64,000 nucleotides of DNA from Steroidobacter agaridevorans (GTDB lineage Bacteria > Pseudomonadota > Gammaproteobacteria > Steroidobacterales > Steroidobacteraceae), in assembly GCF_009932555.1 (NCBI RefSeq), contig NZ_BLJO01000002.1:687249-751248 (forward strand), given 5' to 3'. Each line of letters starts with the position of its first letter. Position 1 is the stretch's first letter. The notes beneath the pieces were generated by a model, which saw nothing but the letters and a program-made list of their open reading frames with translations, was not told the origin of the DNA and ran no database searches. Below are positions 11,131 to 33,901 of this stretch, piece by piece. The translations under genes and the position numbers were made by a program.

Positions 11131-11742
11131 CTAACCGGGGATGACGAGAAGCAAACCCAGTGAAACAGCCCCAACAGCCGCAATCGCACTCCCGCCCCAT
11201 CGAACCAGTGAGAGCTGCTGCCCTGACTGCACCATCCTCGTCGAGATCAGCACGCCGAAGGCGTGCAACAGCGCAGTCGACATCACGAATCCGATTCCAT
11301 ACGACGCGGCCGACAGGTCCGCCCCCATCTCCGCTCCATGTGCGTGGCCATGAAACAAAGCGAAGCCCGCCGTCAGCCCGACCAGCACCGGCGCACGAAA
11401 CGTTTGTTTCCAAACAAGCGCGGTCCCGAACGCCACGAGCGACAGCGCAATGCCAATCTCGATAAACGGCACATCCACCCCGCCTGCGCCGATCATCGCT
11501 CCAACGACCATCGCCATCACGAAGCTCACCGGCAGCCCCCACCGCAGGCGCCCAGCGCTGCAACCTGCCAGCAAGCCGACCGCCACCATGGCGAGCAGAT
11601 GATCCAGGCCCCCAAGCGGATGAAGAACACCAGCGAGGAAGCTGTGCGTGACATGGCCAGTGTGTGCCAAGGCCGTGGCAGGCAGCGACAGGGAGAGAAA
11701 CGATCCCAGCAACGATGTACGACGTAACATGATCACGAGCAT
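11131..11742 (-). CDS. ureJ: HupE/UreJ family membrane protein (probable nickel permease of the urease system)
   Basis: This protein of about 203 residues has a signal-peptide-like N-terminus ending in LAHTGH, several membrane helices, the HupE/UreJ signature [12 protein letters not shown] (HPxxGxDH) near residue 40, and FHGHAHGAE. HupE/UreJ proteins are secondary permeases linked to nickel supply for hydrogenase or urease. It is divergent from ureG with about 100 bases between the starts, where a putative operator lies. The start is uncertain between 11742 and the methionine at 11730, which directly opens the hydrophobic leader. Confidence 0.85.
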
Positions 11743-11769
11743 GCCCTCGATGCGACGTTCCCGCCCTGA

Positions 11770-11809
11770 GTCAAATGACGTAGGCGGCCGGTTATGGGAA
11801 ACGTATGAT
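11770..11809 (+). promoter_or_regulatory. ureG promoter with palindromic operator GTCAAATGAC and -10 TATGAT
   Basis: A 10-bp perfect palindrome (11770-11779) lies 24 bases before TATGAT (11804-11809). If the start point is 7 bases after the hexamer, the palindrome is centred at -41.5, the position of class II activators. The -35 region (TAGGCG) is poor, which suggests activator dependence. The 12-mer GTCAAATGACGT is repeated exactly at 16924-16935. Confidence 0.6.
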
Positions 11810-11839
11810 ACGCAAGCATCCCGTGGGCGAGGAAGATCG

Positions 11840-12454
11840 ATGTCGAAAGCTGAAGTGTTGCGACTGGGAGTCGGCGGTCCGGTCGGGTCGGGGAAGACAG
11901 CCCTGGTCGACAATCTCTGCAAGCGCATGCGCGAGCGCTTCAACATCGCCGTCGTCACCAACGACATCTACACGCGCGAGGACGCAGAGTTCCTGATCCG
12001 CAGCCAGGCCCTACCTCCGGAGCGCATTCGCGGCGTGGAAACCGGCGGCTGCCCGCACACCGCCATTCGCGAAGACGCGTCGATGAATCTCGCGGCCATC
12101 GATGGCCTGATGCAGGAATTCGCTGGCCTGGACATGATCATCGTCGAGAGCGGCGGCGACAACCTGGCCGCGACGTTCAGCCCGGAGCTGTCGGATCTGA
12201 CCTTGTACGTGATCGATGTCGCCGCGGGCGACAAGATTCCCCGCAAGGGCGGCCCCGGCATCATGCGGTCGGACCTGCTGATCATCAACAAGATCGACCT
12301 GGCGCCCCATGTGGGCGCCTCGCTCGAAGTCATGGATCGGGACGCACGCAAAATGCGGGGCGAGCGGCCCTTCGTATTCACGAACCTGAAAACGGGCGAA
12401 GGACTGGACAAGGTGATCGCGTTCATCGAGCGCGAAGGCATGTTGAAGCAGTAG
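11840..12454 (+). CDS. ureG: Urease accessory GTPase UreG
   Basis: UreG hydrolyses GTP to drive nickel delivery to urease as part of the UreD-UreF-UreG complex in the cytosol. The 204-residue protein has the P-loop [11 protein letters not shown] (about residues 11-21), the metal-binding CPH motif in [15 protein letters not shown], the ESGGDN switch segment and the NKID guanine-specificity motif, and its length is normal for the family. The start is supported by GAGGA upstream. Unusually, it lies more than 11 kb from the other ure accessory genes, behind its own promoter and divergent from ureJ. Confidence 0.97.
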
Positions 12455-12466
12455 CCCCCTCCGCTC

Positions 12467-13393
12467 TTATCGCGCCAAAGTGCGAACCGCACGTGCGGCG
12501 GCGGCGGCGCGATTCTCCACACCCAGCTTCACGAACACCTGCTCCAGATGTTTGTTCACCGTGCGCGGGCTGATGCTGAGGATCTCGCCAATCTCCCGAT
12601 TGGATTTGCCGCGGCTGATCCACAACAGCACTTCTGCTTCACGCGTGGTGAGCAACAGTGCGCTCTGCAACTGCTGCTCGTCGCCCCGCGTGCCTGACTC
12701 GGCCAGCCTGAACAGCAGTTCGTCCGGTCCGATGCGGCTCAACATCGAAATCTCCAGCCGCCGCGCGCCCACTTCCATGATGGCCGTACCCGCCCCTTTC
12801 ACGCTCTGCCGTAATTGCATCAGCTGTTGCACCAACTCTGCCGGCAGGTTCGCGGCCTGTTCGTTTTGACCCGGAAACAACTCGGCGAGCAATGCCCTGG
12901 CTTTCGGCGTCGACCAGAGCAGCCGACCGCTCAAATCGGTGGCCAGCAGGAAACGTCCGGTCGCATCCAGCGCCGCATGCGTGCCGGAGGCGATTCTCGC
13001 ATTCGCCAGGTGAACGCGGATACGCGCCAGCAACTCGTCGATGACGATGGGTTTAGCGACATAGTCGACGCCGCCCGCGGCGAGTCCCTCGACCACGTGT
13101 TCGGTATCGCTCAGGCCAGTCATGAAGATGACCGGCAGATGCGACAACAGCTTCTCTCGCTTCAAGCGCCGGCAGGCTTCGAAGCCATCGATGCCCGGCA
13201 TTACCGCATCCATCAGCACTAGATCTGGCGTGATCTGATCGACCAGCTCCAGCGCACTGTCGCCGTCAGTGGCGATCAGCACGGTGAACCCAGCCTGATC
13301 GAGGGTGTCGGTGAGAAAGCTGAGCGTCTCCGGCGTGTCATCCACGACCAGCACGGTATCCCGGCGCGTGCTTGCTTCAGAGGTCATCGTCAT
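12467..13393 (-). CDS. LuxR-family response regulator, partner of the NCS1-type sensor kinase
   Basis: This 308-residue two-domain regulator has a receiver domain (residues about 13-130; DD at 18-19, phosphorylated Asp62 in LMDAVMPG, Lys in AKPI), a middle linker with PAS-like character (about 140-225), and a C-terminal LuxR helix-turn-helix (LTTREAEVLLWISRGKSNRE, then ISPRTVNKHLEQVFVKLG). It overlaps the 3' end of the kinase gene by 17 bases, so the two are co-expressed. It is the natural candidate to bind the shared palindrome upstream of ureG and the porin-urt genes, although this is inference from position. Confidence 0.93.
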   Translation of the reverse strand: MTMTSEASTRRDTVLVVDDTPETLSFLTDTLDQAGFTVLIATDGDSALELVDQITPDLVLMDAVMPGIDGFEACRRLKREKLLSHLPVIFMTGLSDTEHVVEGLAAGGVDYVAKPIVIDELLARIRVHLANARIASGTHAALDATGRFLLATDLSGRLLWSTPKARALLAELFPGQNEQAANLPAELVQQLMQLRQSVKGAGTAIMEVGARRLEISMLSRIGPDELLFRLAESGTRGDEQQLQSALLLTTREAEVLLWISRGKSNREIGEILSISPRTVNKHLEQVFVKLGVENRAAAAARAVRTLAR

Positions 13394-16300
13394 TTCGCAG
13401 GGTTTCCAGCACGTTCATGTAGCGCTTCAGGTCGAAGTTCGCGACCAGCGACTGCATGTGGGTGGTGAAGGGTTTGCTGGCCGGGTCGTCGGCCTCGATC
13501 TGGCGCAGCTTGGCTTGGATGCCACGCACGTGCCCGATCTTGCCGAGTTGATAGAGATCGTTGACGTGATGTCGCGAGTGCAACGGCAAGTCGCGCGACG
13601 CGCCGACCTCCTCTATCGCTTCCTCCTCGGTCGCGTAGGTCCACTGCAGACCGAGCAGACCCGCGATCGTATCGAGCAGTAACTGCATGTCGACGGGCTT
13701 CATCACAAAGCCGTCGTGCGGACAATCGGCGCCGCCCGGGCCGTATTCATGTGCGTTGGCCGACACCATGACGATCTTCATCGACGTGAGCGCCGCGTGA
13801 TCGCGCAGTTGGTTCGCGACGTCCCAACCCGACAGATCCGGCATCGAAATATCGATCATGACCAGCGCCGGACGCTCCCGGACAGCGAGCGCGATGCCCG
13901 ATGTTCCGTTCGACGCCGTGAGAACCTCAAACTGCAATGGCCGCAGCAGACGCTGCACGATGTCGAGATGCGCGGGATCGTCATCGATAAGCAGCAACTT
14001 GCAGCGCGCCCCGGTGTAGCCGGTGATGCGCCCGGGTAGCGACGATTGCTGGACCGAATGCATCGCCTCGGACAACAGCAGTCGCACAGTAAACATCGTG
14101 CCCTCGCCCAGCGTGCTGCGCGCGAGCAGCTCGCCGCCCATGATTTGCGTCAGCAGCTTCGTGATCGTGAGCCCCAGACCGATGCCCGGCACCGCGCGCA
14201 CCGTCGGCGTTTCACCGCGCTCGAAAGGCTGAAAGACCCGCTCGAGATCGGCCTCCGCAATGCCGAGGCCGGTATCGGAGATCTCGAACTCCGCCACTTG
14301 ATTGCGATAGCGCACCACCAGGCTGGCATGGCCGCGCTCGGTGTACTTGATCGCATTCGACAGCAGATTGATCAGGATCTGCCGCAACCGTTTCTGGTCG
14401 GTGTACACCTGCGCCGGCAGGTGCGGCGGCCGTTGATAGCGGAACTCGATGCCGCGACTCGCCGCCTGCAGCCGGAACATGTCGACGATCTGGTCGAGAA
14501 ACTCCACCAGCTGCACTTTGTCCCGATTCAGCCGCAGCATGCCGTTCTCGATGCGCGAGATATCCAGCAAGCCGTCGATGAGGTTGGTGAGATGCTCGGC
14601 GCTGCGGCGGATCACGCGCGCCGCATTGTCGGAAGGCCCGGCGATCTCCCGTTCGAGCAGCTGCGCATAACCGAAGATCGCATTCAGCGGCGAGCGGATC
14701 TCGTGGCTGATGCCGACGATATAACGCGTCTTGGCCACATTGGCCGCTTCTGCGACTTCCTTCGCCTTTTGCAGGGCCGCGTCCGTGCGTTTGTGAGCCT
14801 CGATTTCATCCATCAGCATTGCGGTCTGGCGCGCCGACTCCGCCTCGGCGCTGCGCCGGCTCTCGTGGGCTAGGACGATGAGCCACGCGGCCACGCCGGT
14901 CAGCACGAATAGACTGATGAAGACGACCCACAACGTCATGCCGATCGCCTCGCGATCCGCCGCGGTGGCGCCGCCGGCCTGATGATAGATCAGCGACAGC
15001 AGCAAACCCGTCGCCAAGTTGAACACCAGCAACAGGCCAAAGAAATGACCGGCGCGCGTGTTCAACGACACTGCCGCGCGCTTGGGCAGGATACTCGCGA
15101 AGAACCCCTGCAGCTGCTCGGTAAAGCGGCTGTCGGTCTTGCACAGATCGTGACAACGCGCCTCCAGCGTGCAGCACAACGAGCAGATCGGGCCCGAATA
15201 GGCGGGACACATCGCCATGTCGTTCCGGCCGAATACGTTTTCGCAGATCGTGCAACGAATCTCGGGCTGCTGCTCCGGTAGACCCGTCGGCTGGCGGGCC
15301 AGGTAGTACCGACCCTTCGTCGCCCACGCGATCAGCGGCGCGGCGACGAAGGCCACGACCAGCGCCACCAGCGGAGAAAGAATCTGCGGGAATGTGCCGA
15401 ACACACCGAGGAACGCGAGACTCGAGATCACAATCGACAACAGCAATGCGCCCACGCCGACGGGATTGATGTCATAGAGATGCGCGCGTTTGAACTCGAT
15501 GTACGGTGGGCTGTACCCCAGCGGCTTGTTGATCACCAAGTCCGCTGTCAAGGCACCGATCCACCCCGCCGCGAAATTGGCGTAGATCACCAGGATGCTT
15601 TCGATCGCGTTGAAGATGCCGGTCTGCATGAGCAGCAACGCGAGCAGCACGTTGAACACCAGCCACACGACGCGGCCCGGATGGCTGTGCGTCAGACGCG
15701 AAAAGAAATTCGACCACGCGATCGATCCGGCGTACGCGTTGGTCACATTGATCTTGAGCTGACAGACGATGACGAAGATGCCGGTCAGCACCAGCGCAAA
15801 GGTCGGCGACTGAAACGTCTCGCGGAACGCCAGGAAATACATGCCCGTCGGCTCATCCGCCTGCGCCGGCAAGACCCCATGCCGTAAGGCGAAGTACGCC
15901 AGAAAGGAGCCCGCGAGCAACTTGAACCCGCCCATGAACACCCAGCCAGGGCCCGAGGCGATCAACGCCGTCCACCAAGCCACCCGATTGCGGCGATCAC
16001 GGTTTGGCAGAAATCGCAGATAGTCCACCTGCTCGCCAATCTGCGGCAGCAATGACAGCAGCATCGACAGCGCCAGACCGAACAACAGCGGATCGAGCGA
16101 ACCGTCGGGCGAGCCTTGCTGGCCTGCGTATCCGGTCCACGCCGACACGTCGGCCGGACTCCGCCACGCTATATATGCAATCGGCAGGATCTGCAGCAGC
16201 AGCCAGATCGGCTGCGTCACCAGCTGCATCTTGCTGATCAGACTGATGCCATAGATCGCGATGGGAATGACGATCAGCGAGCTGATCAGATGGCCGATCG

Positions 16301-16745
16301 CGAGCGGAATGCCGAACAGCATCTGCAGCGCCATCGACATGATGCTCGCCTCGATTGCCAGCAGCAGGAAGGTGAAGGACGCATAGATCAGCGAGGTGAT
16401 CGTCGAGCCCATGTACCCGAAGCCGGCGCCACGCGTGAGCAGGTCGATGTCCACGCCATAGCGGGCCGCATACGAGCAGATCGGCAGGCCGATCAGAAAC
16501 ATCAGCACGCAGAACGCCGCGATCGCCCACGCGGTATTCGGAAAGCCATAGGCAATCGTCAGCGCGCCGCCGATGGCCTCGCACGCCAGGAACGCGATCG
16601 GACCGAACGCAGTATTGCCGACGCGGAAAGAAGACTTGCGCGCGCGATCCGCCGTGTAGCGCAGCGCATAGTCTTCGAGCGTCTGACTCGCCACCCATTG
16701 GTTGTACTGACGGCGCTCGCGAACGATCCGTTGTCGTGCAGCCAT
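13377..16745 (-). CDS. Hybrid sensor histidine kinase with NCS1 (purine/cytosine/allantoin permease-like) sensor domain
   Basis: A protein of about 1122 residues. Residues 20-490 form a 12-helix nucleobase:cation symporter-1-like permease (TAFGPIAFLACEAIGGALTIAYGFP near the start). Residues 498-535 hold an eight-cysteine cluster (CTIC, MCPAY, CSLCC, RCHDLC) that could bind a metal or Fe-S centre. Two more membrane helices follow, then HisKA (H681 in SHEIRSPLNAIFGYA), HATPase (NLLSNAIKYTERG, GIGLGLTITKL) and a receiver with Asp965 (MIDISMPDLSGWD). A transporter-like sensor resembles the logic of CbrA, which uses an SLC5 domain. The locus between ureG and urt suggests it senses urea, a purine-derived compound or nitrogen flux. 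The ATG at 16745 is preferred; a longer frame exists. Confidence 0.9.
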   Translation of the reverse strand: MAARQRIVRERRQYNQWVASQTLEDYALRYTADRARKSSFRVGNTAFGPIAFLACEAIGGALTIAYGFPNTAWAIAAFCVLMFLIGLPICSYAARYGVDIDLLTRGAGFGYMGSTITSLIYASFTFLLLAIEASIMSMALQMLFGIPLAIGHLISSLIVIPIAIYGISLISKMQLVTQPIWLLLQILPIAYIAWRSPADVSAWTGYAGQQGSPDGSLDPLLFGLALSMLLSLLPQIGEQVDYLRFLPNRDRRNRVAWWTALIASGPGWVFMGGFKLLAGSFLAYFALRHGVLPAQADEPTGMYFLAFRETFQSPTFALVLTGIFVIVCQLKINVTNAYAGSIAWSNFFSRLTHSHPGRVVWLVFNVLLALLLMQTGIFNAIESILVIYANFAAGWIGALTADLVINKPLGYSPPYIEFKRAHLYDINPVGVGALLLSIVISSLAFLGVFGTFPQILSPLVALVVAFVAAPLIAWATKGRYYLARQPTGLPEQQPEIRCTICENVFGRNDMAMCPAYSGPICSLCCTLEARCHDLCKTDSRFTEQLQGFFASILPKRAAVSLNTRAGHFFGLLLVFNLATGLLLSLIYHQAGGATAADREAIGMTLWVVFISLFVLTGVAAWLIVLAHESRRSAEAESARQTAMLMDEIEAHKRTDAALQKAKEVAEAANVAKTRYIVGISHEIRSPLNAIFGYAQLLEREIAGPSDNAARVIRRSAEHLTNLIDGLLDISRIENGMLRLNRDKVQLVEFLDQIVDMFRLQAASRGIEFRYQRPPHLPAQVYTDQKRLRQILINLLSNAIKYTERGHASLVVRYRNQVAEFEISDTGLGIAEADLERVFQPFERGETPTVRAVPGIGLGLTITKLLTQIMGGELLARSTLGEGTMFTVRLLLSEAMHSVQQSSLPGRITGYTGARCKLLLIDDDPAHLDIVQRLLRPLQFEVLTASNGTSGIALAVRERPALVMIDISMPDLSGWDVANQLRDHAALTSMKIVMVSANAHEYGPGGADCPHDGFVMKPVDMQLLLDTIAGLLGLQWTYATEEEAIEEVGASRDLPLHSRHHVNDLYQLGKIGHVRGIQAKLRQIEADDPASKPFTTHMQSLVANFDLKRYMNVLETLRNDDDL

Positions 16746-16921
16746 TCTCGATGTTCTTGTGTCGTTGACGTTCCCATAAGCAAGCGATGTGCCAGGCCAC
16801 GTTCTGGGGCAGCGTCGCGGCTGCCTTCCCCAATGCTGGTGCACGTTCGTGCCACATCGAGGTGCAGCGTTCAGGCCGGCTGCACAGTGATGGGTCGTAC
16901 GCGACTCATTCGAGCACGGCT

Positions 16922-16963
16922 ACGTCAAATGACGTGTATGCGCACGTCGCCAGCCCGCATAGC
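16922..16963 (+). promoter_or_regulatory. Putative promoter of the porin-urt-ure operon with palindromic operator
   Basis: ACGTCA-AA-TGACGT (16922-16935) is a perfect 14-bp palindrome. It shares 12 identical bases with the ureG promoter site, and at exactly the same distance downstream (22 bases after the 12-mer) lies CATAGC (16958-16963), a weak -10 with the ATA core. This sits in the divergent region between the kinase gene and the porin, about 95 bases before the porin ATG. Confidence 0.55.
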
Positions 16964-17030
16964 GTTCGACGCCAGGGATGGACTCGAGCTCATCTGGCCA
17001 CACCAACAATCACGACTGCAGGGAACCTTC

Positions 17031-18134
17031 ATGCGACCACCATCGATCAATTGCCGAACCACCGCGGGCTTGCGCGTCGTCGCGATGGGCGCGCTGGCAG
17101 CGCTGCCCGCGAGCAACCTGCTCGCCGCCGAGGTGGATTTGCCGCCCGTGTCGGTCGGCGCCGGCGTGCGCTCGAGCTTCACGTACTCCGATCCGGACTT
17201 TGGCGATGAGGTCAGCGACTTCGAGCTGAACAGCGCGCGCATCTACATCAGCGGCAAAGTGACCGAGAACATCAGCTTGATGTTCAACACCGACTACAAC
17301 GCAGGGGGCGCGACGCCGGAATCGGTGCGCGTCATCGACGCCGTCGCGCAATTCTCGTTCTCGGATGAATTCAACATCTGGGCCGGCCGTTTCCTGCCAC
17401 CGAGCGACCGCGCCAATCTTTACGGCCCCTATTACGCAAATCACTGGGGCGTGTATCGCGACGGCGTCCAGGACGGCTATCCGTTCGAGACCGAAGGCCG
17501 CAACGACGGCGTGATGTATTGGGGTCAGTTCGGTATCGCGAAGGTCTCCGCCGGCGCCTTCGATGTGCAAGGCCTCACCAAGGGCAGCTCGGACGTGCTG
17601 TACGCGGGCCGCGTGCAGCTGGATTTCTGGGACCCGGAGAGCGGCTATTACCTGAACAGCACCTACTACGGCGAGAAGGATCTGCTGGCGGTCGGCGTCG
17701 CGGCTCAAACAGCGGCCGGCGACAACGCCTACTCCGTCGACTTTCTGCTGGAAAAGAAGCTGGCCAACAGCGGCGTCGTGACGATCGAGGCGGAATACGC
17801 CAAGTATGACGGCCTGGGCGGCTACCCCTCGCCAGTGTCCAACATCAATGTCCCCATCCCGTACGACTCGAGCGACGGTTACTACCTGCTCGGCGCCTAC
17901 GTGTTTCCGCAAACCGTCGGCATCGGCAAGTTCCAGGTGCTCGCGAAGTACGGCGAGGCGACCTACGACTACGGCTTCGCCGAGCTCGATCAAACCACGA
18001 GCGAGTTGAACCTGACGTATCTGATCAAGGACTTCAACGCGCGCGTCACGCTGTTCTACATCGACTCCAGCTTCGACCCCAATCTCGGCCTCGACGGCAA
18101 GCAGATGGGCGTCGGCCTGCAGGTTCAGATCTAG
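17031..18134 (+). CDS. Outer-membrane porin of the urea uptake operon (phosphate-selective porin O/P-like)
   Basis: This 367-residue beta-barrel has a signal peptide (GALAALPASNLLAAEV) and alternating hydrophobic strands ending in the typical C-terminal pattern (MGVGLQVQI). The segments FELNSARIYISGKVTENISL and FNIWAGRFLPPSDRANLYGP are typical of the OprO/OprP-like group. It is the first gene of the urt cluster, 29 bases before urtA, so it probably forms the outer-membrane channel for urea or short amides. The start at 17031 follows AGGGA. A longer frame upstream overlaps the kinase gene on the other strand and is rejected. Confidence 0.85.
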   Translation: MRPPSINCRTTAGLRVVAMGALAALPASNLLAAEVDLPPVSVGAGVRSSFTYSDPDFGDEVSDFELNSARIYISGKVTENISLMFNTDYNAGGATPESVRVIDAVAQFSFSDEFNIWAGRFLPPSDRANLYGPYYANHWGVYRDGVQDGYPFETEGRNDGVMYWGQFGIAKVSAGAFDVQGLTKGSSDVLYAGRVQLDFWDPESGYYLNSTYYGEKDLLAVGVAAQTAAGDNAYSVDFLLEKKLANSGVVTIEAEYAKYDGLGGYPSPVSNINVPIPYDSSDGYYLLGAYVFPQTVGIGKFQVLAKYGEATYDYGFAELDQTTSELNLTYLIKDFNARVTLFYIDSSFDPNLGLDGKQMGVGLQVQI

Positions 18135-18163: not shown

Positions 18164-19453
18164 ATGCGTAAAACAAACCCGGGCGGACTGAAGCAACTTG
18201 CAGCCGCCATCGCTCTCATGTCCGCCATGGCGGCGCAAGCGGCCGACACCATCAAGGTCGGCGTGTTGCATTCGCTGTCGGGCACGATGGCGATCTCGGA
18301 AACGACGCTCAAAGACACCGTCCTCATGCTCATCGACGAGCAGAACAAGAAAGGCGGCGTCATGGGCAAGAAGCTCGAAGCCGTGGTGGTCGATCCAGCT
18401 TCCAACTGGCCGCTGTTCGCCGAGAAGGCCGAGCAGCTGCTGGTGAAGGACAAAGTGTCGGTCGTGTTCGGCTGCTGGACCTCGGTCTCACGCAAGTCCG
18501 TGCTGCCGGTGTTCGAGAAGAACAATGGCTTGCTGTTCTATCCGGTGCAGTACGAGGGCGAGGAATCGTCCAAGAACGTGTTCTACACCGGCGCCGCGCC
18601 CAATCAGCAGGCGATTCCCGCCGTCGATTACCTGATGAACGAAGTGGGCGTGAAGCGCTGGGTGCTGGCCGGCACCGACTACGTGTATCCGCGCACCACC
18701 AACAAAATCCTCGAAGCGTACTTGAAGGCCAAGGGCGTCAAGGACGAGGACATCATGATCAACTACACGCCCTTCGGGCACTCCAACTGGCAGCGCATCG
18801 TCGCTGACATCAAGAAATTCGGCTCAGCGGGGAAAAAGACCGGCGTCGTCTCCACCATCAACGGCGACGCCAACGTGCCGTTCTACAAGGAGCTCGGCAA
18901 TCAGAAGATCTCGGCCGAGGACATTCCGGTGGTGGCCTTCTCGGTCGGCGAGGAAGAGCTCTCGGGCATCGACACCAAGCCGCTGGTCGGCCATCTCGCC
19001 GCCTGGAACTATTTCATGAGCGTCGACACGCCGGCGAACGCCGAGTTCATCAAGAAGTGGCGCGCCTTCATCAAGAACAACAAGCGCGTCACCAACGACC
19101 CGATGGAAGCGCACGTGATCGGCTTCAACATGTGGGTCAAGGCGGTGGAAAAGGCCAAGAGCACCGAGGTCGGTAAGGTGATCGACGCCATGGTCGGCAT
19201 CGAAGTGCCGAACCTGAGCGGCGGCACCGCCAAGATGCTGCCGAATCATCACCTCACCAAGCCGGTGCTGATTGGCGAAGTGCGCGCCGACGGTCAGTTC
19301 GACACCGTCTGGCAGACCGAAGGATTGGTGCCGGGCGACGCGTGGTCCGACTACTTGCCGGGCAGCAAGGACATCGAGGCGGACTGGGTGAAGCTCAAGT
19401 GCGGCAACTACAACACCAAGACCATGAAGTGCTCCGGACAGAACTACGAGTAA
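18164..19453 (+). CDS. urtA: Urea ABC transporter substrate-binding protein UrtA
   Basis: UrtA is the periplasmic urea receptor of the UrtABCDE high-affinity transporter. The 429-residue protein has a signal peptide (LAAAIALMSAMAAQAAD) followed by the characteristic TIKVGVLHSLSGTMAISE start of the mature family. VFGCWTSVSRKSVLPVFE and YPVQYEGEESSKN are signature segments of urea and short-chain amide receptors. GGAG upstream supports the start. It lies between the porin and urtB in one transcription unit. Confidence 0.97.
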   Translation: MRKTNPGGLKQLAAAIALMSAMAAQAADTIKVGVLHSLSGTMAISETTLKDTVLMLIDEQNKKGGVMGKKLEAVVVDPASNWPLFAEKAEQLLVKDKVSVVFGCWTSVSRKSVLPVFEKNNGLLFYPVQYEGEESSKNVFYTGAAPNQQAIPAVDYLMNEVGVKRWVLAGTDYVYPRTTNKILEAYLKAKGVKDEDIMINYTPFGHSNWQRIVADIKKFGSAGKKTGVVSTINGDANVPFYKELGNQKISAEDIPVVAFSVGEEELSGIDTKPLVGHLAAWNYFMSVDTPANAEFIKKWRAFIKNNKRVTNDPMEAHVIGFNMWVKAVEKAKSTEVGKVIDAMVGIEVPNLSGGTAKMLPNHHLTKPVLIGEVRADGQFDTVWQTEGLVPGDAWSDYLPGSKDIEADWVKLKCGNYNTKTMKCSGQNYE

Positions 19454-19463
19454 TGGGTCCGCG

Positions 19464-21155
19464 GTGACAAACATCAGTTGCACGTTGTTCGCGGTCCCGG
19501 GCGCAAGTCCGGGACCGCTGTTCCTTGCCCGCCGCGCATTGGGGTGGCTCGCGCTCCTCCTGGTCGTCGGGATGCTCGCGCGCCCAGCTGCCGCTGCCGA
19601 GTCGACTTCATTCGAGCAGGCGCTCGGCCATCTCGCGACGGCCAACTTCAAACAAAAGGAACGCGCCGTCGGCGAGTTGCTCGACGCTCGCCATGCCAAC
19701 ACGCGCGCCGTGCTGAACGCGTTGCTCGAAGGCACTCTCTATTATCGAAAAGACGACAGGCGCGTGTTCATCGCCGCTGCGCAGGATGCGAGCTTGCGAT
19801 TACTAGACCCGCTCACGATGTCCGACGCAGGCACCGCCGAGGCGTCCGACTACACCAAGATCACGACCAACAACCAGTTGCGTAAAACATTGAAGAGCGC
19901 GTTGGCCAGCTTCGACCTGGCCGATCCCGACGCGAATGTGCGACTGGCCGCCGTGAACGAGCTAATGCGCTCTCTGGATGCGGACAGCGTTTCGATCCTG
20001 CGTGCGCGCCAAAGCTCCGAAAAGAACGATGCGGTCCGTACTGCCATCAGCACCGGCCTGGCCATCGCAGATCTGGATAGCGCGGATGCCGCCGTTCGGC
20101 TGGCCGCCGTCGAACAACTCGAAGGCAGCCTGAATCCCGAAGCCTTCAACCGGCTCAGCGCCCTCGTGACCAAGGCCGACGACGGCAGCTACGCAGAGCC
20201 GGATGAGAACGTGCGAAACGCGGCGCGCGCCGCGCTCAACGAGATCGACAACTGGCGGAGCTTCTATCGCACGCTGGAAACATTGTTCTTCGGCCTGAGC
20301 CTGGGCTCGGTGCTGGTGTTGGCTGCGATCGGGCTTGCCATCACCTTCGGCGTCATGGGCGTCATCAACATGGCGCACGGCGAGTTGATGATGCTCGGCG
20401 CCTACACCACTTACGTGATTCAGCTGCTGATGCCGCAACACATTGGCGCCTCGGTGCTGGTCGCGATACCGGTCGCTTTCTTGGTTGCGGGCGGCGTCGG
20501 TGTCCTGATCGAGCGTGGCATCATGCGCTTCCTGTATGGCCGCCCCCTGGAAACATTGCTGGCCACCTTCGGCGTCAGCCTGGTGCTGCAGCAGATCGTG
20601 CGCGACATCTTCACCGCCAACAATCGCCCCGTGGAAACCCCGGCGTGGATGGCCGGTTCGCTGCAGATCAACGAAGCGTTCTCGATCACTTACAACCGGC
20701 TCTACGTCGTGCTGTTCATGCTGATCGTGTTCGCGATCCTGCAACTGGTCCTGAAGAAGACTTCGCTCGGCCTGAAAGTGCGGGCAGTGGCGCAAAATCG
20801 CGCGATGGCGAAATCCATGGGCGTGCGCACCGAGTGGGTGGACGCGCTCACGTTCGGGCTGGGCTCGGGCATCGCCGGCGTCGCCGGCGTCGCACTGAGC
20901 CAGCTCACCAACGTCGGGCCGAATCTCGGCCAGAGCTACATCATCGATTCGTTCATGGTCGTCGTGTTCGGCGGCGTGGGCAATCTCTGGGGCACGCTCA
21001 TCGGCGGTATGTCGCTCGGCGTCGTGAACCAGGCGCTCGAACCGTACGCGGGCGCCGTCCTCGCGAAGATCCTCGTGCTCATCGCGCTGATCCTGTTCAT
21101 CCAGCGACGCCCGCGTGGCCTCTTTCCGCAGAAAGGCCGGGCCGCCGAGAATTAA
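19464..21155 (+). CDS. urtB: Urea ABC transporter permease UrtB
   Basis: This 563-residue inner-membrane permease of the branched-chain amino acid type has a signal sequence, then a periplasmic N-terminal region (about residues 50-265), which many proteobacterial UrtB proteins carry, then eight or so membrane helices from residue 270. The segments GLAITFGVMGVINMAHGELMMLGAY and VFGGVGNLWGTLIGG identify the family. The start is a GTG ten bases after urtA, without a strong ribosome site, which suggests coupled translation. Confidence 0.94.
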   Translation: MTNISCTLFAVPGASPGPLFLARRALGWLALLLVVGMLARPAAAAESTSFEQALGHLATANFKQKERAVGELLDARHANTRAVLNALLEGTLYYRKDDRRVFIAAAQDASLRLLDPLTMSDAGTAEASDYTKITTNNQLRKTLKSALASFDLADPDANVRLAAVNELMRSLDADSVSILRARQSSEKNDAVRTAISTGLAIADLDSADAAVRLAAVEQLEGSLNPEAFNRLSALVTKADDGSYAEPDENVRNAARAALNEIDNWRSFYRTLETLFFGLSLGSVLVLAAIGLAITFGVMGVINMAHGELMMLGAYTTYVIQLLMPQHIGASVLVAIPVAFLVAGGVGVLIERGIMRFLYGRPLETLLATFGVSLVLQQIVRDIFTANNRPVETPAWMAGSLQINEAFSITYNRLYVVLFMLIVFAILQLVLKKTSLGLKVRAVAQNRAMAKSMGVRTEWVDALTFGLGSGIAGVAGVALSQLTNVGPNLGQSYIIDSFMVVVFGGVGNLWGTLIGGMSLGVVNQALEPYAGAVLAKILVLIALILFIQRRPRGLFPQKGRAAEN

Positions 21156-21157
21156 AC

Positions 21158-22282
21158 ATGCAGACATCTCATCCAGCGATCCGACTTCTCGCCGGCGAGC
21201 GCGGCACGCAAGTGTTTCTTGCGTTGCTGCTGACTGTCGGCGTCGCCGCGCCAATCATGCACCTCGCATTTCCGGAAGGCTCGGCCTTGCACCTGTCCAG
21301 CTACACGATGACGCTCATGGGCAAGTACATGACCTATGCCCTGCTCGCCATCGCCGTGGACCTGGTCTGGGGCTATTGCGGCATCTTGAGCCTCGGACAC
21401 GCAGCGTTCTTCGCACTCGGCGGCTACGCGATGGGCATGTATCTGATGCGGCAGATCGGCACGCGCGGCGTCTATGGCGATCCGGTGCTGCCCGACTTCA
21501 TGGTGTTCCTGAATTGGCAGGAGCTGCCGTGGTTCTGGCACGGCTTCGATATGTTCTGGTTTGCCGCGCTCATGGTCATCGTCGTGCCCGGGCTGCTGGC
21601 ACTGGCATTCGGATGGCTGGCGTTTCGTTCGCGCGTCACCGGCGTGTATCTGTCGATCATCACGCAAGCGCTGACCTACGCGCTGATGCTCGCCTTCTTC
21701 CGCAACGACATGGGCTTTGGCGGCAACAACGGCCTGACGGACTTCAAAGACATCCTCGGCGCGAATATCAACGCGCCCGGAACTCGGGTCGCATTGTTTG
21801 TAGCCTCGGCGGTCGCGCTCGGTCTCGGCTATCTCGCCTGCCGTTACATCACCTTGTCACGTGCCGGTCGGGTGGTACAGGCGATTCGCGACGCCGAAAG
21901 CCGAACCCGATTCATCGGCTATCGCGTCGAGTCATACAAGCTGTGGGTGTTCGCATTCTCTGCGGTGCTCGCCGGTATTGCCGGGGCGCTGTACGTGCCG
22001 CAGGTCGGCATCATCAATCCCAGCGAATTCCAGCCCATCAACTCCATCGAGATCGTCATCTGGGTGGCGGTGGGTGGCCGCGGAACCTTGTATGGCGCGG
22101 TCGCGGGCGCTGTGCTCGTGAACTACGCGAAAACTTATTTCACCGCCACCATCCCCGAGCTGTGGCTGTACGCGCTGGGCACGCTGTTCGTGATCGTCAC
22201 GTTGTTCCTGCCGAAGGGCGTCGTCGGGCTCGCAGATAAATTCACGTCACGCGAGCCGGCTGCTCGAGCGGTGACCGCATGA
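21158..22282 (+). CDS. urtC: Urea ABC transporter permease UrtC
   Basis: This 374-residue second permease subunit begins two bases after the urtB stop. It has about ten membrane helices and the UrtC/LivM signature WGYCGILSLGHAAFFALGGY, then ALRDAESRTRFIGY-type cytoplasmic coupling helix residues (QAIRDAESRTRFIGYRVE) and WVAVGGRGTLYGAVAGA. Upstream in-frame extension into urtB is a reading-frame shadow. It pairs with UrtB to form the urea channel. Confidence 0.96.
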   Translation: MQTSHPAIRLLAGERGTQVFLALLLTVGVAAPIMHLAFPEGSALHLSSYTMTLMGKYMTYALLAIAVDLVWGYCGILSLGHAAFFALGGYAMGMYLMRQIGTRGVYGDPVLPDFMVFLNWQELPWFWHGFDMFWFAALMVIVVPGLLALAFGWLAFRSRVTGVYLSIITQALTYALMLAFFRNDMGFGGNNGLTDFKDILGANINAPGTRVALFVASAVALGLGYLACRYITLSRAGRVVQAIRDAESRTRFIGYRVESYKLWVFAFSAVLAGIAGALYVPQVGIINPSEFQPINSIEIVIWVAVGGRGTLYGAVAGAVLVNYAKTYFTATIPELWLYALGTLFVIVTLFLPKGVVGLADKFTSREPAARAVTA

Positions 22283-23106
22283 ACGCCACCACCGCTCTTC
22301 GTAACGGTTGGCAAAAGGTATTCGGCGCCGGAGCGAGAAGCGCTCGCCCAGCGCCCGGCGACACTTCGCACGGCACGATTCTGTATCTCGAAGACATCAG
22401 CGTCAGCTTCGATGGTTTCAAGGCGCTCAACGCACTGACCTTGTATATCGACGCCGGCGAGCTTCGTTGCATCATCGGGCCGAATGGCGCCGGCAAGACC
22501 ACGATGATGGACGTCATTACCGGCAAGACGCGCCCGGATGCCGGCTCGGCATGGTTCGGCCAGACCACCGACCTGCTGACATTGAGCGAGCCGCAGATCG
22601 CCGAAGCGGGCATTGGCCGGAAGTTTCAGAAACCCACCGTGTTCGAGCAGCACACCGTCATGGAGAACCTGGAGCTGGCGGTCGCCGGCACCAAGACGAT
22701 CTGGACGACGCTCGGTTCCCCGCTCGATCGCCGGCAACACGAACGTATCGAAGAGGTACTCGAAACCATTCGCTTGCAGGATCGCCGCAGCATGCGTGCC
22801 GGCATGCTTTCGCACGGCCAGAAGCAATGGCTGGAGATCGGCATGCTGCTCGCGCAGGAGCCGCGTCTGCTGCTCGTCGACGAACCGGTGGCCGGCATGA
22901 CGCCGCAGGAAGTGGAGCGCACCGCCGAGCTGTTGCTCTCGCTCGCGGGCAAACATTCCGTGATGGTCGTCGAACATGATATGGATTTCGTCCGCTCCAT
23001 CGCGCGCAGGGTCACCGTGCTGCACGAGGGCCACGTCCTGGCGGAAGGCACGATCGATGAAGTCCAGAACGATCCACGCGTCGTGGAAGTGTATCTGGGC
23101 GAGTGA
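22279..23106 (+). CDS. urtD: Urea ABC transporter ATPase UrtD
   Basis: This 275-residue LivG-type ATPase has Walker A GPNGAGKTT, an ABC-like signature in the LSHGQKQWLEIGM segment (HGQ replacing the usual SGGQ, common in UrtD), and Walker B RLLLVDEPVAGM followed by the H-loop. The ATG overlaps the urtC stop by four bases. It energises urea import together with UrtE. Confidence 0.96.
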   Translation: MNATTALRNGWQKVFGAGARSARPAPGDTSHGTILYLEDISVSFDGFKALNALTLYIDAGELRCIIGPNGAGKTTMMDVITGKTRPDAGSAWFGQTTDLLTLSEPQIAEAGIGRKFQKPTVFEQHTVMENLELAVAGTKTIWTTLGSPLDRRQHERIEEVLETIRLQDRRSMRAGMLSHGQKQWLEIGMLLAQEPRLLLVDEPVAGMTPQEVERTAELLLSLAGKHSVMVVEHDMDFVRSIARRVTVLHEGHVLAEGTIDEVQNDPRVVEVYLGE

Positions 23107-23118
23107 CAGAGACGAACG

Positions 23119-23811
23119 ATGCTGGAAATCCGACAGCTCAACCAGTTCTACGGCGGCAGCCACATTCTTTGGGATGTGGACCTGAGCATCGCCGCCGGCT
23201 CGTGCACCTGCCTGATGGGCCGCAACGGCATGGGCAAAACCACCCTGCTCCGCTGCATCATGGGCCTGCTGCCCGCGACCGGCGAGGTTTCCTATGACGG
23301 ACAGAACCTGAATCGACTCGCGGCCGATCGTCGCGCCGGCCTTGGCATCGGCTACGTCCCACAGGGGCGCGAAATCTTTTCGCAGCTGACGGTGGAAGAG
23401 AACCTTCGCATCGGCCTGTCGGCACGCAAGCGCAAAGTCCGCGATATTCCGGAACAGATCTTCGAGCTGTTTCCGGTGTTGAAGAAGATGCTACGTCGTC
23501 GCGGCGGCGACCTGTCCGGCGGCCAGCAGCAGCAACTCGCCATCGGCCGTGCGCTGGTTCTGGAGCCGCGTCTGCTGATCCTGGATGAGCCGACCGAAGG
23601 CATTCAACCCAACATCGTTCATGAAATCGGCGATATCATCCTGCGGCTCAACCACGAGGCGAACCTCACCGTGCTGCTGGTCGAACAGAAATTGCCTTTT
23701 GCCCGCCGCGTGGCGAGCGAGTTCCGCATCCTCGACAAGGGCCGGGTCGTCGCGGGCGGGAAGATTCCCGAGCTGACGGACGATTTGGTACGCCAGCACC
23801 TCACGGTATGA
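23119..23811 (+). CDS. urtE: Urea ABC transporter ATPase UrtE
   Basis: This 230-residue LivF-type ATPase has Walker A GRNGMGKTT, signature LSGGQQQQLAIGRAL and Walker B RLLILDEPTEGIQP, the last typical of UrtE. It starts 12 bases after urtD and its stop overlaps the ureD start by four bases, so transport and hydrolysis genes are on one message. Confidence 0.96.
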   Translation: MLEIRQLNQFYGGSHILWDVDLSIAAGSCTCLMGRNGMGKTTLLRCIMGLLPATGEVSYDGQNLNRLAADRRAGLGIGYVPQGREIFSQLTVEENLRIGLSARKRKVRDIPEQIFELFPVLKKMLRRRGGDLSGGQQQQLAIGRALVLEPRLLILDEPTEGIQPNIVHEIGDIILRLNHEANLTVLLVEQKLPFARRVASEFRILDKGRVVAGGKIPELTDDLVRQHLTV

Positions 23812-24626
23812 GCGCAGTCGGCGAGCAATCGCCAACGTCGGGATGGCGCGCACGGCTGGAACTGACGTTCGCCCGCGCCGCCGGACGAACACGCATTGTC
23901 GCGCGACGACATCACGGCCCGCTGCTCGTGCAGAGACCGTTCTATCCCGAGGGCGATGTTTGTCACGCTTACATCGTTCATCCACCCGGTGGCGTCGTGG
24001 GTGGCGACGAGTTGCAGTTGCACGTCGAAACAGGAAACGACGCGCACGCCTTGCTAACGACGCCGGCCGCGGCGAAGTTCTATCGCAGCGATGGCCGCAC
24101 GGCCCGACAGGAGCAGATTCTGCGTGCCGATGGAGCGACGCTGGAATGGTTACCGCAGGAAAGCATTTTCTATCCCGATGCCAGAGTGCGCAGTGTGACT
24201 CGCATCGAGCTGTCAGCGCGCGCCAGGTTCATCGGCTGGGAGATCGCCTGCCTCGGCCTGCCGGCTCGCAAGCAACCGTTCGATCGCGGCGAGCTGCGTC
24301 TGCACCTGGAATTGTGGGAAGCCGGCGCGCCGCTATTGATCGATCGGTTGCGCATTTCTGGAAGCACGGGCTGGGGCCTGGGCGGCCATGAGTCGATCGG
24401 AACATTGCTTGCCTATCCTGCGACACGCGTGACGGTCGACGCTGTCCGGAACGTGCAACCGCCGAATGTCGAACTCGGGGTCACGCTGGTAGATAACGTG
24501 CTGGTCTGCCGAGCGCTCGCCGCGCAGGCCGAGCCGATCAAGCGCGCGTTCGTCGAAGCCTGGAAAACATTGCGGCCCTCTTTGCTGGAGCGGCCGGCCG
24601 TGCCGCCCCGCATCTGGGCAACTTGA
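23808..24626 (+). CDS. ureD: Urease accessory protein UreD
   Basis: UreD (UreH) is the scaffold that binds apo-urease and receives UreF and UreG for nickel insertion. The 272-residue protein shows family signatures: [35 protein letters not shown] near residue 60, [11 protein letters not shown], and [14 protein letters not shown]. It overlaps urtE by four bases and is followed eight bases later by ureA. Confidence 0.96.
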
Positions 24627-24634
24627 GACACGCC

Positions 24635-24937
24635 ATGGAACTGACACCAAGAGAGAAAGATAAACTGCTCATCTTCACCGCCGCGCTGCTCGCCGAGCGA
24701 CGCAAGGCTCGCGGCCTGAAATTGAATTATCCCGAGGCGGTCGCCTTGATCTCCGCCGCGATCATGGAAGGCGCGCGCGACGGCAAGACGGTTGCGGAGC
24801 TGATGAGCTATGGCGCCACCATCCTGACGCGCGACGACGTGATGGACGGCATTGCCGAAATGATCCCCGACGTCCAGGTCGAGGCCACGTTTCCAGACGG
24901 CACCAAGCTCGTGACCGTGCACCAGCCCATCGCCTGA
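24635..24937 (+). CDS. ureA: Urease gamma subunit
   Basis: This is the 100-residue small structural subunit of cytosolic urease (urea to ammonia and carbamate). It has the usual start [20 protein letters not shown], the [13 protein letters not shown] segment, and the ending [12 protein letters not shown]. Length and sequence are normal for three-subunit bacterial ureases. An in-frame TTG four codons upstream overlaps the ureD stop, but the ATG fits the family start. Confidence 0.98.
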
Positions 24938-24959
24938 CGCAGATCGACGCGAGGACTTC

Positions 24960-25265
24960 ATGATACCCGGCGAAGTGTTTCCCGCGGACGGCGAGCTCGA
25001 GCTCAACGTCGGCCGCCCCACCGTCATCATCAAAGTGGCGAACACCGGCGATCGGCCGATACAGGTCGGCTCGCATTATCACTTCTTCGAAACCAACACG
25101 GCGCTGCGCTTCGACCGAGCGGCGACGCGAGGCTTTCGCCTGAACATCGCCTCCGGGACCGCGGTCCGCTTCGAGCCCGGCCAGGAGCGCGAAGTGGAGC
25201 TGGTTGCGTACGACGGCGATCGCGTGGTGTATGGATTCAATCAAAAGGTGATGGGCAAGTTATGA
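24960..25265 (+). CDS. ureB: Urease beta subunit
   Basis: A 101-residue structural subunit with the typical [16 protein letters not shown] start and the [11 protein letters not shown] motif, ending in [16 protein letters not shown] precedes the start. The stop overlaps the ureC ATG by four bases, so stoichiometric translation is likely. Confidence 0.98.
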
Positions 25266-26965
25266 CCTCCATCGGCCGGACCGCCTATGCCGAGATGTAC
25301 GGGCCCACCACGGGCGACCGCGTGCGCCTGGGCGACACCGAATTGATCGTCGAGGTCGAGCGCGACCATACGATCTACGGCGAGGAAGTGAAATTCGGCG
25401 GCGGCAAAGTCATCCGCGACGGCATGGGCCAGAGCCAGCGCACCGCCGCCGACGTCGTCGACACCATCATCACCAACGCGCTGATCATCGACCATTGGGG
25501 CATCGTCAAGGCCGACATCGGCATCAAGGATGGGCGCATCGTCCGCGTCGGCAAGGGCGGCAATCCGGATGTGCAACCGGGCGTCGACATCGTGATTGGC
25601 GCCGGCACCGAAGTGATCGCCGGCGAAGGGCTCATCGCAACGCCGGGGGCGATCGATTCGCACATTCATTTCATCTGCCCGCAGCAGGTCGACGAAGCAT
25701 TGATGTCCGGCATCACGACCATGATCGGTGGCGGCACCGGTCCCGCGACCGGCACGAACGCGACCACGTGCACCTCGGGCCGTTGGTATATCGAGCGCAT
25801 GTATCAGGCCGTCGAGGCGCTGCCGATCAACTTCGGATTGCTCGGCAAGGGCAACGCGAGTCTGCCCCGCCCGCTCGAGGAACAAATCGAAGCGGGCGTC
25901 ATGGGATTGAAGCTGCACGAGGATTGGGGCACGACACCGGCGGCCATCGATAATTGCCTCGCCGTTGCCGACCGATACGACGTGCAGGTCGCCATCCATA
26001 CGGACACGCTCAATGAGTCCGGTTTCGTCGAAGACACGATCGCCGCGTTCAAGGGACGTGCGATTCATACCTATCACACCGAGGGCGCCGGTGGCGGTCA
26101 TGCGCCGGACATCATCAAGGCTTGCGGCGAAGCCAACGTGCTGCCCTCCTCGACCAATCCAACTCGTCCCTATACGGTCAACACCATCGACGAGCATCTC
26201 GACATGCTGATGGTGTGCCATCACTTGGATCCCGGCATTGCCGAGGACGTCGCGTTCGCCGAATCGCGCATCCGCCGCGAGACAATTGCCGCAGAGGATA
26301 TCCTGCACGACCTGGGCGCCTTTTCGATGATCTCGTCCGACTCCCAGGCCATGGGCCGCGTTGGCGAAGTCATCACACGCACCTGGCAGACGGCGCACAA
26401 GATGAAAGTGCAGCGGGGCTCGCTGGCGCCGGACACGGCACGCAACGATAACTTTCGCGTGCGTCGCTATCTCGCCAAGTACACGATCAATCCAGCCCTG
26501 ACGCACGGTGTGGCGCATGAAGTCGGATCGATCCAGGCCGGCAAGCTCGCCGACATCGTGCTGTGGCGCCCGGCGTTCTTCGGCGCGAAGCCCGCGATGA
26601 TCATCAAAGGCGGCATGATCGTCGCCGCTCCCATGGGCGACCCGAATGCGTCAATTCCTACGCCGCAGCCCGTGCACTATCGTCCGATGTTTGGCGCGCT
26701 CGGTCGGGCTCGGTCCGCCACGTCTGTGAGTTTTGTTTCCAAGGCCGCGCTGGAGAACGGCATGGCCGAGCGCTTGAAGCTCGATAAGCGCTTGGTCGCC
26801 GTGCAGGGAACGCGTACTGTGCGCAAGCGCGATCTGGTGCTGAACGACTATCAGCCGACGATCGATGTGGATTCGCAAACGTACGAAGTGCGCGCCGACG
26901 GCCAGCTGCTCACCTGCGAGCCGGCGAAAGCGTTGCCGCTGGCGCAGCGATATTTCCTGTTCTGA
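25262..26965 (+). CDS. ureC: Urease alpha (catalytic) subunit
   Basis: The 567-residue nickel metalloenzyme subunit carries all expected active-site residues at standard numbering: H134 and H136 (DSHIHF), carbamylated K217 and H219 (GLKLHEDWG), H320 ([10 protein letters not shown]) and D360 (SSDSQAMGR). The mobile-flap cysteine region is present in the same HHL segment. Nothing suggests loss of function. It lies in the order ureD-A-B-C-E-F behind urtABCDE, so imported urea is hydrolysed by the co-expressed enzyme. Confidence 0.99.
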
Positions 26966-26967
26966 AG

Positions 26968-27438
26968 TTGACCTCTGTGCTGAATATCACTCGAAAGCTG
27001 CCCGCCTCCACGACGCCTGCTGACGTGAAGCTCGTGCTGCCGTTTCAATTGCGGAACAAGAGCCGTCTGCGCACCACCTTGGATACTGGCGAAGAAGTGG
27101 GCCTGATCCTCGAGCGTGGATCGATCCTGCGCGGCGGAGATCTGTTGCTTGCGGAGGATGGCCGCGTCGTGGAAGTCGTCGCGGAGCCCGAGACGGTTTC
27201 GACAGTGCGCGCCTCCGAGCCGCTGGCGCTGTGTCGGGCGAGCTATCATCTGGGCAATCGACACGTCGCGCTGCAGATCGGCCCTGGCTGGGTTCGTTAT
27301 CAACACGATCACGTGCTCGACGAAATGGTCCGCGGCCTGGGTCTTGCCGTCACAATCGAAGAAGCGCCTTTCGAGCCCGAGGCTGGCGCCTATGGTGGGC
27401 ACTCGCATTCCGCACTTGCTCCGCATGCGCTCGGGTAG
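26968..27438 (+). CDS. ureE: Urease accessory metallochaperone UreE
   Basis: UreE delivers nickel to the UreG/F/D complex. The 156-residue protein has the UreE N-terminal fold ([23 protein letters not shown]) and the conserved metal site [12 protein letters not shown] around residue 90. Its tail is short ([14 protein letters not shown]) rather than the long poly-His seen in some bacteria. The start is uncertain: TTG at 26968 or GTG at 26977, both within a few bases of the ureC stop. Confidence 0.94.
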
Positions 27439-28090
27439 CACTCACCTGCTTCGCATCCTGCATCTGGCGAGCCCCGCCTTGCCGATCGGCGCTTTTCACT
27501 TCTCGCAAGGATTGGAATATGCCGTCGAAGCAGGCTGGGTGAAGGACGAGCCCTTCGCGCTCGAATGGATAGCCGGCGTTGCTCGATGTGCCATCGGCAC
27601 GCTCGATCTGCCGGTGCTGCTCCGCCTGCATCGTGCCGCTCGCCTTGGCGACGACGATGGGCTGCAACGGTGGGGCCGATTCCTGCTGGCGGCTCGAGAG
27701 ACGGAAGAACTGCGTGCCGAGGACCGCCATATGGGATCCGCACTGGCTCGCATCTTGCGAGAGCTCGGCGCGAGGCTTCCAAGCCGGAACCATCCCGGCT
27801 ACGCCGAGATGTTCGCTGTTGCCTGCGTGCACTGGAACATCGGTGAGGACGAAGTCCTGCAGGCGTATGCATGGGCTTGGGCGGAGAATCAGGTTCTCGC
27901 AGCCGTGAAGCTCGTACCGCTCGGACAAAGCGCCGGACAGCGCATGCTGCACGCCCTTGTGCCGTTGCTCGAAGAAATCGCGGTGCAGGCGTTCGATATC
28001 GACGATGAAGGCATCGGCGCCTGCGCAGTCATGCAAGGGCTCGCCAGCGCGCGACACGAAACCCAGTACACTCGGCTGTTCAGATCCTAA
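27392..28090 (+). CDS. ureF: Urease accessory protein UreF
   Basis: UreF acts with UreD and UreG in urease activation. The protein of about 232 residues has the family start region [32 protein letters not shown], plus [11 protein letters not shown]-like and [19 protein letters not shown] segments. It overlaps ureE by 47 bases. The ATG at 27392 has GAGG nine bases upstream. The ATG at 27425 gives a start closer to many homologues and is the alternative. It is the last ure gene of this operon; ureG is encoded elsewhere in the window. Confidence 0.93.
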
Positions 28091-33826: not shown

Positions 33827-33868
33827 TTCCGTCCCCATGGTTTTAGTAATGGGCGAACAAGCCTTATC

Positions 33869-33901
33869 AGGACATCTTAGTCCTATATAGAGAATCGTCA
33901 A
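33869..33901 (-). promoter_or_regulatory. Promoter of serine hydrolase 2 with an inverted repeat over the -10
   Basis: On the minus strand TTGACG (33901-33896), a 16-base spacer and TAAGAT (33879-33874) form a plausible sigma-70 promoter. The -10 is exactly the 6-base spacer of the inverted repeat AGGAC-N6-GTCCT (33869-33884), so a repressor bound there would block it. Confidence 0.5.

Follow-up and report, generated by a model that had tools for sequence, protein, structure and literature searches.

Genes that serve one pathway from separate positions raise the question of how they are kept under common control. This question is posed by a stretch of 64,000 nucleotides from Steroidobacter agaridevorans (contig NZ_BLJO01000002.1, positions 687,249 to 751,248), hereafter the window, whose first letter is position 1. 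From left to right, it carries hupE/ureJ (- strand), ureG (+), a LuxR-type response regulator (-), a hybrid sensor kinase (-) and, all on the + strand, a porin gene, urtABCDE and ureDABCEF. The same 12-base sequence stands ahead of ureG and ahead of the porin gene. Sequence comparison suggests that this repeated site, here called the urea box, is the operator of the LuxR-type regulator encoded between its two copies, and that the regulator activates the genes for urea uptake and breakdown. We give this reading a probability of roughly 0.8.

A first-pass annotation of this DNA had reported an identical 12-base palindrome at two places. The repeat itself is real: GTCAAATGACGT occurs on the + strand at 11770-11781 and 16924-16935, and nowhere else in the window. 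Dinucleotide shuffles give a chance expectation of 0.01 copies per window, and 0 of 100 shuffles held two. The 8.0 Mb genome, for which the base composition of the window predicts 0.43 copies, contains exactly these two. A scan of the genome for the 12-mer therefore reveals no multitude of copies unrelated to urea, and elsewhere the box stands before further genes for urea, biuret or nickel. Taken alone, the 12-mer is not self-complementary; what is symmetric is the 14-mer element of which it forms the core, within an inverted repeat of 14-18 bp, ATACGTCA-WW-TGACGTAT. The box before porin-urt-ure (16922..16935, +) is a perfect 6+2+6 palindrome over 14 bp, ACGTCA-AA-TGACGT, and the box before ureG (11768..11781, +) reads GAGTCA-AA-TGACGT, with five of six arm pairs. 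The flanks of the 14-mer show weaker conservation, out to about 18 bp. Across 42 sites the half TGACGTA is almost invariant while the opposite half ranges from ATACGTCA to ATGGGGCR, so that near-palindromic and lopsided sites can be regarded as one family.

Allowing up to one mismatch, the 12-mer is found at 15 places in the genome, compared with 10 for the reversed pattern. In 81 sequences of 1.39 Mb (the first 32 kb of the window plus loci L037-L116; L027-L036, which partly repeat named loci, were not counted together with these), ACGTCA-NN-TGACGT matches perfectly at 8 places, with one mismatch at 16 and with two at 26. Thirty permuted-arm controls of the 14-mer yielded at most 1 perfect and at most 12 one-mismatch places. 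A search of the own genome with TACGTCANNTGACGTA and three mismatches was not useful (82 places per strand versus 184 for the control). In several loci, tandem boxes lie before urt: 22 nucleotides apart in L040, L041, L046, L077, L145 and L147, 32-33 in L038 and L039, and 92 in L050.

That the box exists and is conserved, where it lies, and that it co-occurs with the regulator or the kinase are direct observations. Of the 81 sequences, 33 are close-regulator loci in which urtA is visible; every one of them has a box of at least 17 bits in the 2.6 kb preceding urtA, as opposed to 1 of 33 in the reversed control. These loci, like the 11 family genomes described below, include close relatives and are not independent. 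In 16 of the 33, the box-bearing urtA is only 36-43% identical to the urtA of the window. Porin upstream regions carry the box in 11 of 12 cases (the exception being L100; control 0/12), and kinase upstream regions in 25 of 56. The kinase and porin counts exclude kinases matching only beyond residue 40 and porins without urtA in view; ureG genes on the ureF strand, the window's own among them, are likewise excluded from the upstream counts.

Within the family, a search with E up to 1e-80 finds urtA in 12 of 60 relatives, and one with E up to 1e-40 finds the regulator in 11 of those 12 and in 0 of the 48 relatives lacking urtA at these thresholds. The regulator thus co-occurs with urtA, as in a urea-associated two-component system. 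All 11 regulator-carrying genomes have a box before porin-urtA, scoring 26.3-28.0 bits. The twelfth relative with urtA, the single genome G028, keeps porin-urt-ure; it has no regulator genome-wide, and the 19 kb read there contain neither kinase nor regulator and no box (best 10.2 bits). A sample of 369 gammaproteobacteria extends the comparison to the class. The kinase N-terminal part is present in 17 of these genomes and a UrtA match in 90. None of 23 kinase-lacking genomes has a box before urtA (highest 12.9 bits), the 23 being those with a fetched locus out of the 77 that have urtA but not the kinase; in at least one of the 23, the upstream sequence read is shorter than 1.5 kb. Among kinase-carrying genomes with a UrtA match, the own genome excluded, 7 of 12 have the box before urtA (G068, G106, G196, G228, G254, G306 and G414). 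In the same sample, 10 of 19 kinase upstream regions, from 16 genomes, contain a box (control 0/19).

The motif is also recovered by methods that presuppose less about its form. Expectation maximization (EM) without a palindrome constraint, run de novo on 109 upstream regions under the exclusions given above, returned TACGTCAAaTGaCgCATg as the top motif, estimated to be present in 63%. A cross-class model was trained on 16 urtA upstream regions taken as alphaproteobacterial by their titles (L098 and L111 are titled only bacterium and Proteobacteria; L102, L105 and L108 are alike). Its log-likelihood was 200.7, that of a single shuffled set 54.9. With this model, each of the 17 gammaproteobacterial urtA loci outscored all 17 reversed controls (lowest 17.6, highest control 11.4). 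In the 64 kb window it placed the porin and ureG sites at ranks 1 and 2, followed by a match at 33132 inside the reading frame 31838-33901 (17.3 versus 17.9 for the ureG site). Genome ranks were taken among 150 candidates scored per genome: in the own genome, model R1 puts the porin box first and the ureG box second, and model R2, trained with no Steroidobacteraceae site, puts the porin box first and the ureG box fourth of four matches. A reading in which the box has many genomic targets was rejected, as the further matches checked in the own genome (L008/L219 at C5:310043, L213 and L221) fall inside long reading frames; matches L204 and L210 in relatives do likewise.

The spacing of the box to putative promoters is conserved as well. 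For ureG, the putative -10 element TATGAT (11804..11809, +) begins 22 nucleotides after the box. In nine family loci this hexamer is TATNAT in eight and TAAGAT in the ninth, at 21-25 nucleotides from the box in six and at 30, 34 and 45 in the other three. For porin-urt, the putative -10 is TAGCGT (16960..16965, +), 24 nucleotides after the 14-mer. Of 11 family porin loci, 10 have a TANNNT hexamer exactly 24 nucleotides past the nearer box, L145 being the exception and the spacing in L031 being obtained by subtracting the 22 nucleotides between its two boxes. In some loci, another hexamer in the first 70 nucleotides outscores the conserved one. The earlier proposal of CATAGC at 16958 as the porin -10 was two bases off and is rejected, since several relatives do not keep it, whereas a TANNNT hexamer (TAGCGT in the window) is what relatives retain. 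Its claim of equal distances consequently survives in part: both of its hexamers indeed start 22 bases past the 12-mer, but the conserved porin hexamer lies at 24. Counted from the putative -10 elements, the dyad centers fall at about -41.5 for ureG, where the first-pass annotation had placed it, and at about -43.5 for the porin. The boxes would span about -48 to -35 and -50 to -37, respectively, which is the place of the -35 element, and a box over the -35 region leads one to expect class II activation. Activation in this manner is most likely what the geometry reflects.

The separate ureG provides a further view of the same arrangement. This gene lies with other ure genes in 18 named loci and beside the regulator in 8. 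Where it is separate, a box of at least 17 bits precedes it in 7 of 9 loci, including the window (22.4 bits). The second box looks like the means by which the displaced ureG stays in the regulon. Together with the urtA loci and the absence of the box where the kinase is missing, this comparison supports the prediction that one LuxR-type regulator would act through the site on both ureG and porin-urt-ure. On the other side of the ureG box, hupE starts only 25 nucleotides away and is probably too close to be driven in the same mode; the distance between hupE and the box varies among relatives.

The proposed box-binding protein is encoded at 12467..13393 (-). Pfam identifies a receiver domain (PF00072, 5e-29) and a C-terminal GerE helix-turn-helix (PF00196, 8e-18), the composition of a LuxR/NarL-type response regulator. 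The hybrid sensor kinase next to it (13377..16745, -) consists of an NCS1-type transporter part, a Cys-rich segment, HisKA, HATPase and a receiver, as assigned by Pfam, AlphaFold and Foldseek. Among the matches listed (25 of 109 and 25 of 127), no NCBIfam model reaches its cutoff for the regulator or the kinase. The transporter-like part (15306..16628, limits approximate, -) corresponds to about residues 40-480. No Pfam transporter family matches it, even at E up to 5, and a profile search of solved-structure sequences gave no match, so its fold was predicted instead. The AlphaFold model of residues 1-650 (mean predicted local distance difference test score 76.9, predicted template modeling score 0.77) has an NCS1 carrier fold in this region, with CodB 7qoa (E 1.4e-10) and Mhp1 2jln heading the Foldseek list of PDB entries at 16-18% identity in the structural alignment. 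A sodium/sialic acid symporter, which we take to be of the SLC5 type, appears at ranks 6-7.

Between the transporter part and the kinase core lies a Cys-rich segment (15141..15254, -), followed by predicted helices. Its eight cysteines (C498, C501, C513, C521, C524, C525, C531 and C535) are invariant throughout the 34 sequences of alignment A1, which is without L086, and the segment could be a metal site for zinc or nickel. Three genomes carry two NCS1-type kinase copies each: G195 (L162 and L166), G306 (L156 and L165) and G320 (L151 and L167), the last pair being mutually divergent.

These elements can be arranged into a pathway. The kinase, with its NCS1-fold N-terminal half, would sense urea or a related ureide and phosphorylate the LuxR-type regulator; a kinase of the hybrid type may require an HPt step for this. 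The phosphorylated regulator would then bind the inverted repeat as a dimer and activate sigma-70 RNA polymerase in class II fashion. The porin box would drive porin-urtABCDE-ureDABCEF, and the second box would drive ureG, which in this family is placed apart from the ure genes. The identity of the binder, its activating effect, the transcript starts and urea or a ureide as ligand are what we infer from the comparisons above.

Boxes ahead of other genes hint at a wider regulon. In G003, a box of 25 bits lies about 90 nucleotides before a BiuH-like hydrolase (263.6 bits, under the cutoff of 370), the second such enzyme there, which adjoins a biuret amidohydrolase (418.5 bits, above cutoff) and an AtzH-like gene. 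This region, L032:4687-8316, is situated between the regulator and ureG. It also contains a frame of 528 amino acids without Pfam or NCBIfam match, and it is possibly a biuret branch of the regulon. In L045, a Lysobacterales metagenome-assembled genome, boxes (9976, 13329 and 5428) lie ahead of two arginase-family frames and a TonB-dependent receptor. The arginase-family frames have 490 and 530 amino acids with long N-terminal parts unmatched, and one box is 7 nucleotides from the listed start. A box precedes hupE/ureJ in L100, and boxes before ureD in L080, L099 and L101 represent 3 of 40 ureD/ureA upstream regions, many of them intra-operon (control 0). Similar boxes occur in L082, L084, L092 and L113, where the frame in L092 has no Pfam match. 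With urea and ureides as the common theme, urea itself or a related compound may be the ligand. In its broadest form, the proposal would be a urea and ureide regulon, widespread in proteobacteria and with its own operator, in which an NCS1 ureide carrier has been turned into a sensor kinase that reads a metal, perhaps nickel, through the eight-Cys segment. Urea uptake, urease, nickel import and ureide hydrolases would then be switched on together only in the presence of both substrate and metal. This full version is rather unlikely.

Several observations speak against the proposed operator and regulator. With up to two mismatches, the 12-mer shows no window excess over shuffles (3 seen, 4.4 expected), and the 26 two-mismatch matches of the 14-mer lie within the 4-158 of the permuted controls. 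Since perfect and one-mismatch places are in excess, the signal resides in an exact or near-exact element and in its position. The main position weight matrix was trained on many of the loci that it then counted, and ranks 2 and 3 of model R2, ahead of the ureG site, are inside reading frames of 294 and 520 amino acids; the cross-class test, the family-held-out R2 and the class sample answer the objection of training overlap in part. Of the separate ureG genes, that of L041 has a weak box (15.8 bits) and that of L048 has none upstream. Boxes stand before TonB-dependent receptors, or right at their listed start, in L074, L081 and L097, and before such a receptor in L045; some sphingomonad relatives have kinases without an NCS1 transporter part, and the four kinases read in L082, L096, L106 and L116 are short and lack it. 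Such receptor boxes and kinases suggest that the signal need not be identical everywhere. The lack of a two-mismatch excess is what a chance or functionless repeat would produce, but that explanation can hardly be credited in view of the shuffle statistics, the top EM motif, the genome ranks, the urtA positions, the conservation across two classes and the class sample. A more substantial challenge is that the association of the box with the kinase-regulator pair is sequence-based, and that 5 of the 12 kinase-carrying genomes of the class sample lack a box of at least 17 bits in the available urtA upstream. Two of these (G128 and G165) have none within 2.6 kb, G186 reaches 16.7 bits at best, and G110 and G090 have none in the 0.5 and 1.1 kb that short contigs give. 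The protein that binds the box might accordingly be some other regulator of nitrogen or urea, unlinked to the locus, with the pair a mere neighbor. The box nevertheless tracks the pair, being present in every regulator-carrying family genome and missing from G028 and from the kinase-lacking genomes examined, and the motif transfers from one class to another, which makes an unlinked regulator improbable.

The box at 16922 could instead be an autoregulatory site of the kinase and regulator genes, with the ureG copy secondary. It does sit in the divergent region between kinase and porin, and nearly half of the kinase upstream regions have a box; the remaining 31 of 56, without one, count against the main proposal. 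Seven loci (L079, L087, L089, L093, L095, L098 and L111) have a box upstream of urtA and none upstream of the kinase, and the conserved -10 spacing faces the porin. In two Azospirillum genomes, the regulator has no urt or ure match within 9 kb to its left or right and the kinase has no box nearby, but the top genome match lies before urtA (about 110 nucleotides from the match-implied start) and the second between ureD and ureA (150 candidates scored), away from the pair. Autoregulation as the purpose of the box is thus very unlikely. A different kind of alternative leaves box and regulator as proposed and changes the signal to a ureide of the biuret, allantoin or hydantoin type or to a short-chain amide, the urea genes serving downstream catabolism. 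The kinase fold, closest to the carriers CodB (cytosine) and Mhp1 (hydantoins), would suit such a ligand, as would the biuret-related genes of G003, the arginase-family genes of L045 and the low identity of about half of the box-bearing urtA genes to that of the window. The pair goes with urtA in the window and in all 11 regulator-carrying family genomes, and urea fits this best. A ureide or amide signal is a tentative possibility, and one compatible with the operator proposed here.

The nickel permease gene hupE/ureJ (11131..11742, -; Pfam PF04955, E 5e-50) is divergent from ureG (11840..12454, +), which encodes the urease accessory GTPase (NCBIfam TIGR00101, 347 bits, cutoff 204) and is not part of the main ure cluster. 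The outer-membrane porin preceding the urt genes (17031..18134, +) matches Pfam PF07396 (E 4e-05), and NCBIfam ExtI under its cutoff. It is followed by open reading frames for a urtABCDE-type ABC transporter (18164..23811, +) and for the ureDABCEF urease genes (23808..28090, +), in an order kept in relatives. Except for ureG, the urt and ure names are ones that we presume from family resemblance, and the gene order recurs in relatives. Downstream of the ure genes, two small adjoining frames at 29549-30206 are presumably a toxin-antitoxin pair of the RelE/HigB type.

For bacteria of soil and water, the locus offers a cis-element and a regulator of urea use that can be put to the test; loci of this kind bear the titles Steroidobacter, Peristeroidobacter, Povalibacter, Solimonas, Azospirillum, Acidocella, Methylomicrobium and Alloalcanivorax. 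It also offers a candidate urea or ureide sensor in which an NCS1 transporter fold is fused to a kinase, and it suggests that a displaced gene such as ureG can keep its co-regulation if it has an operator copy of its own.

Among characterized systems, NtrC is a sigma-54 activator. The regulator of the window is of the LuxR type instead, and its box abuts sigma-70-like -10 hexamers. What NtrC control of urea utilization shares with it, in the accessible part of the source, is the nitrogen-responsive control of alternative nitrogen sources (PMC8443478). CodB and Mhp1 are the best solved-structure matches of the kinase N-terminal part, but both act as carriers on their own, with no kinase attached. 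Neither an NCS1-fused kinase nor a LuxR-type regulator of urt-ure was found described in the literature searched, a scope outside which most subscription journals fall, and the available portion of PMC12997753 makes no mention of urea.

Closer parallels exist in acetate and pyruvate utilization. As far as the accessible sections of PMC5715377 describe it, the acetate system CrbS/CrbR (MxtR/ErdR) shares with the window a transporter-fused hybrid kinase, a LuxR-type response regulator, an imperfect inverted repeat immediately 5' of a putative RpoD promoter and a small regulon for uptake and utilization. For CrbR, the inverted repeat is located between -52 and -36 of acs and is required for activation, according to the same sections (PMC5715377); the proposed placement of the boxes in the window almost matches this geometry. 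The differences lie in the sensor, which combines an SLC5 symporter and a STAC domain in CrbS and an NCS1-type fold and an eight-Cys segment here. They also lie in the site, the motif being TACTACCATCGTCGAAT at acs versus TACGTCA-WW-TGACGTA in the present case, and in the targets, which are acetate genes there and urea genes here (PMC5715377, in part). The top folds of the window kinase are NCS1 (CodB and Mhp1), not an SLC5 symporter domain, and by eye the box consensus is not the ACTU motif as given in the sequences seen in PMC5715377. Without these two features, the window system is not CrbS/R, though it would work like it. RpuS/RpuR of Sinorhizobium fredii, which responds to pyruvate, likewise couples a transporter-fused kinase to an uptake operon controlled via repeats near the promoter; it differs in its imperfect direct repeat between -80 and -43, its SLC5/STAC kinase and its substrate (PMC9100948, as far as accessible). 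CrbS/R and RpuS/R are the nearest known systems to the one described here.

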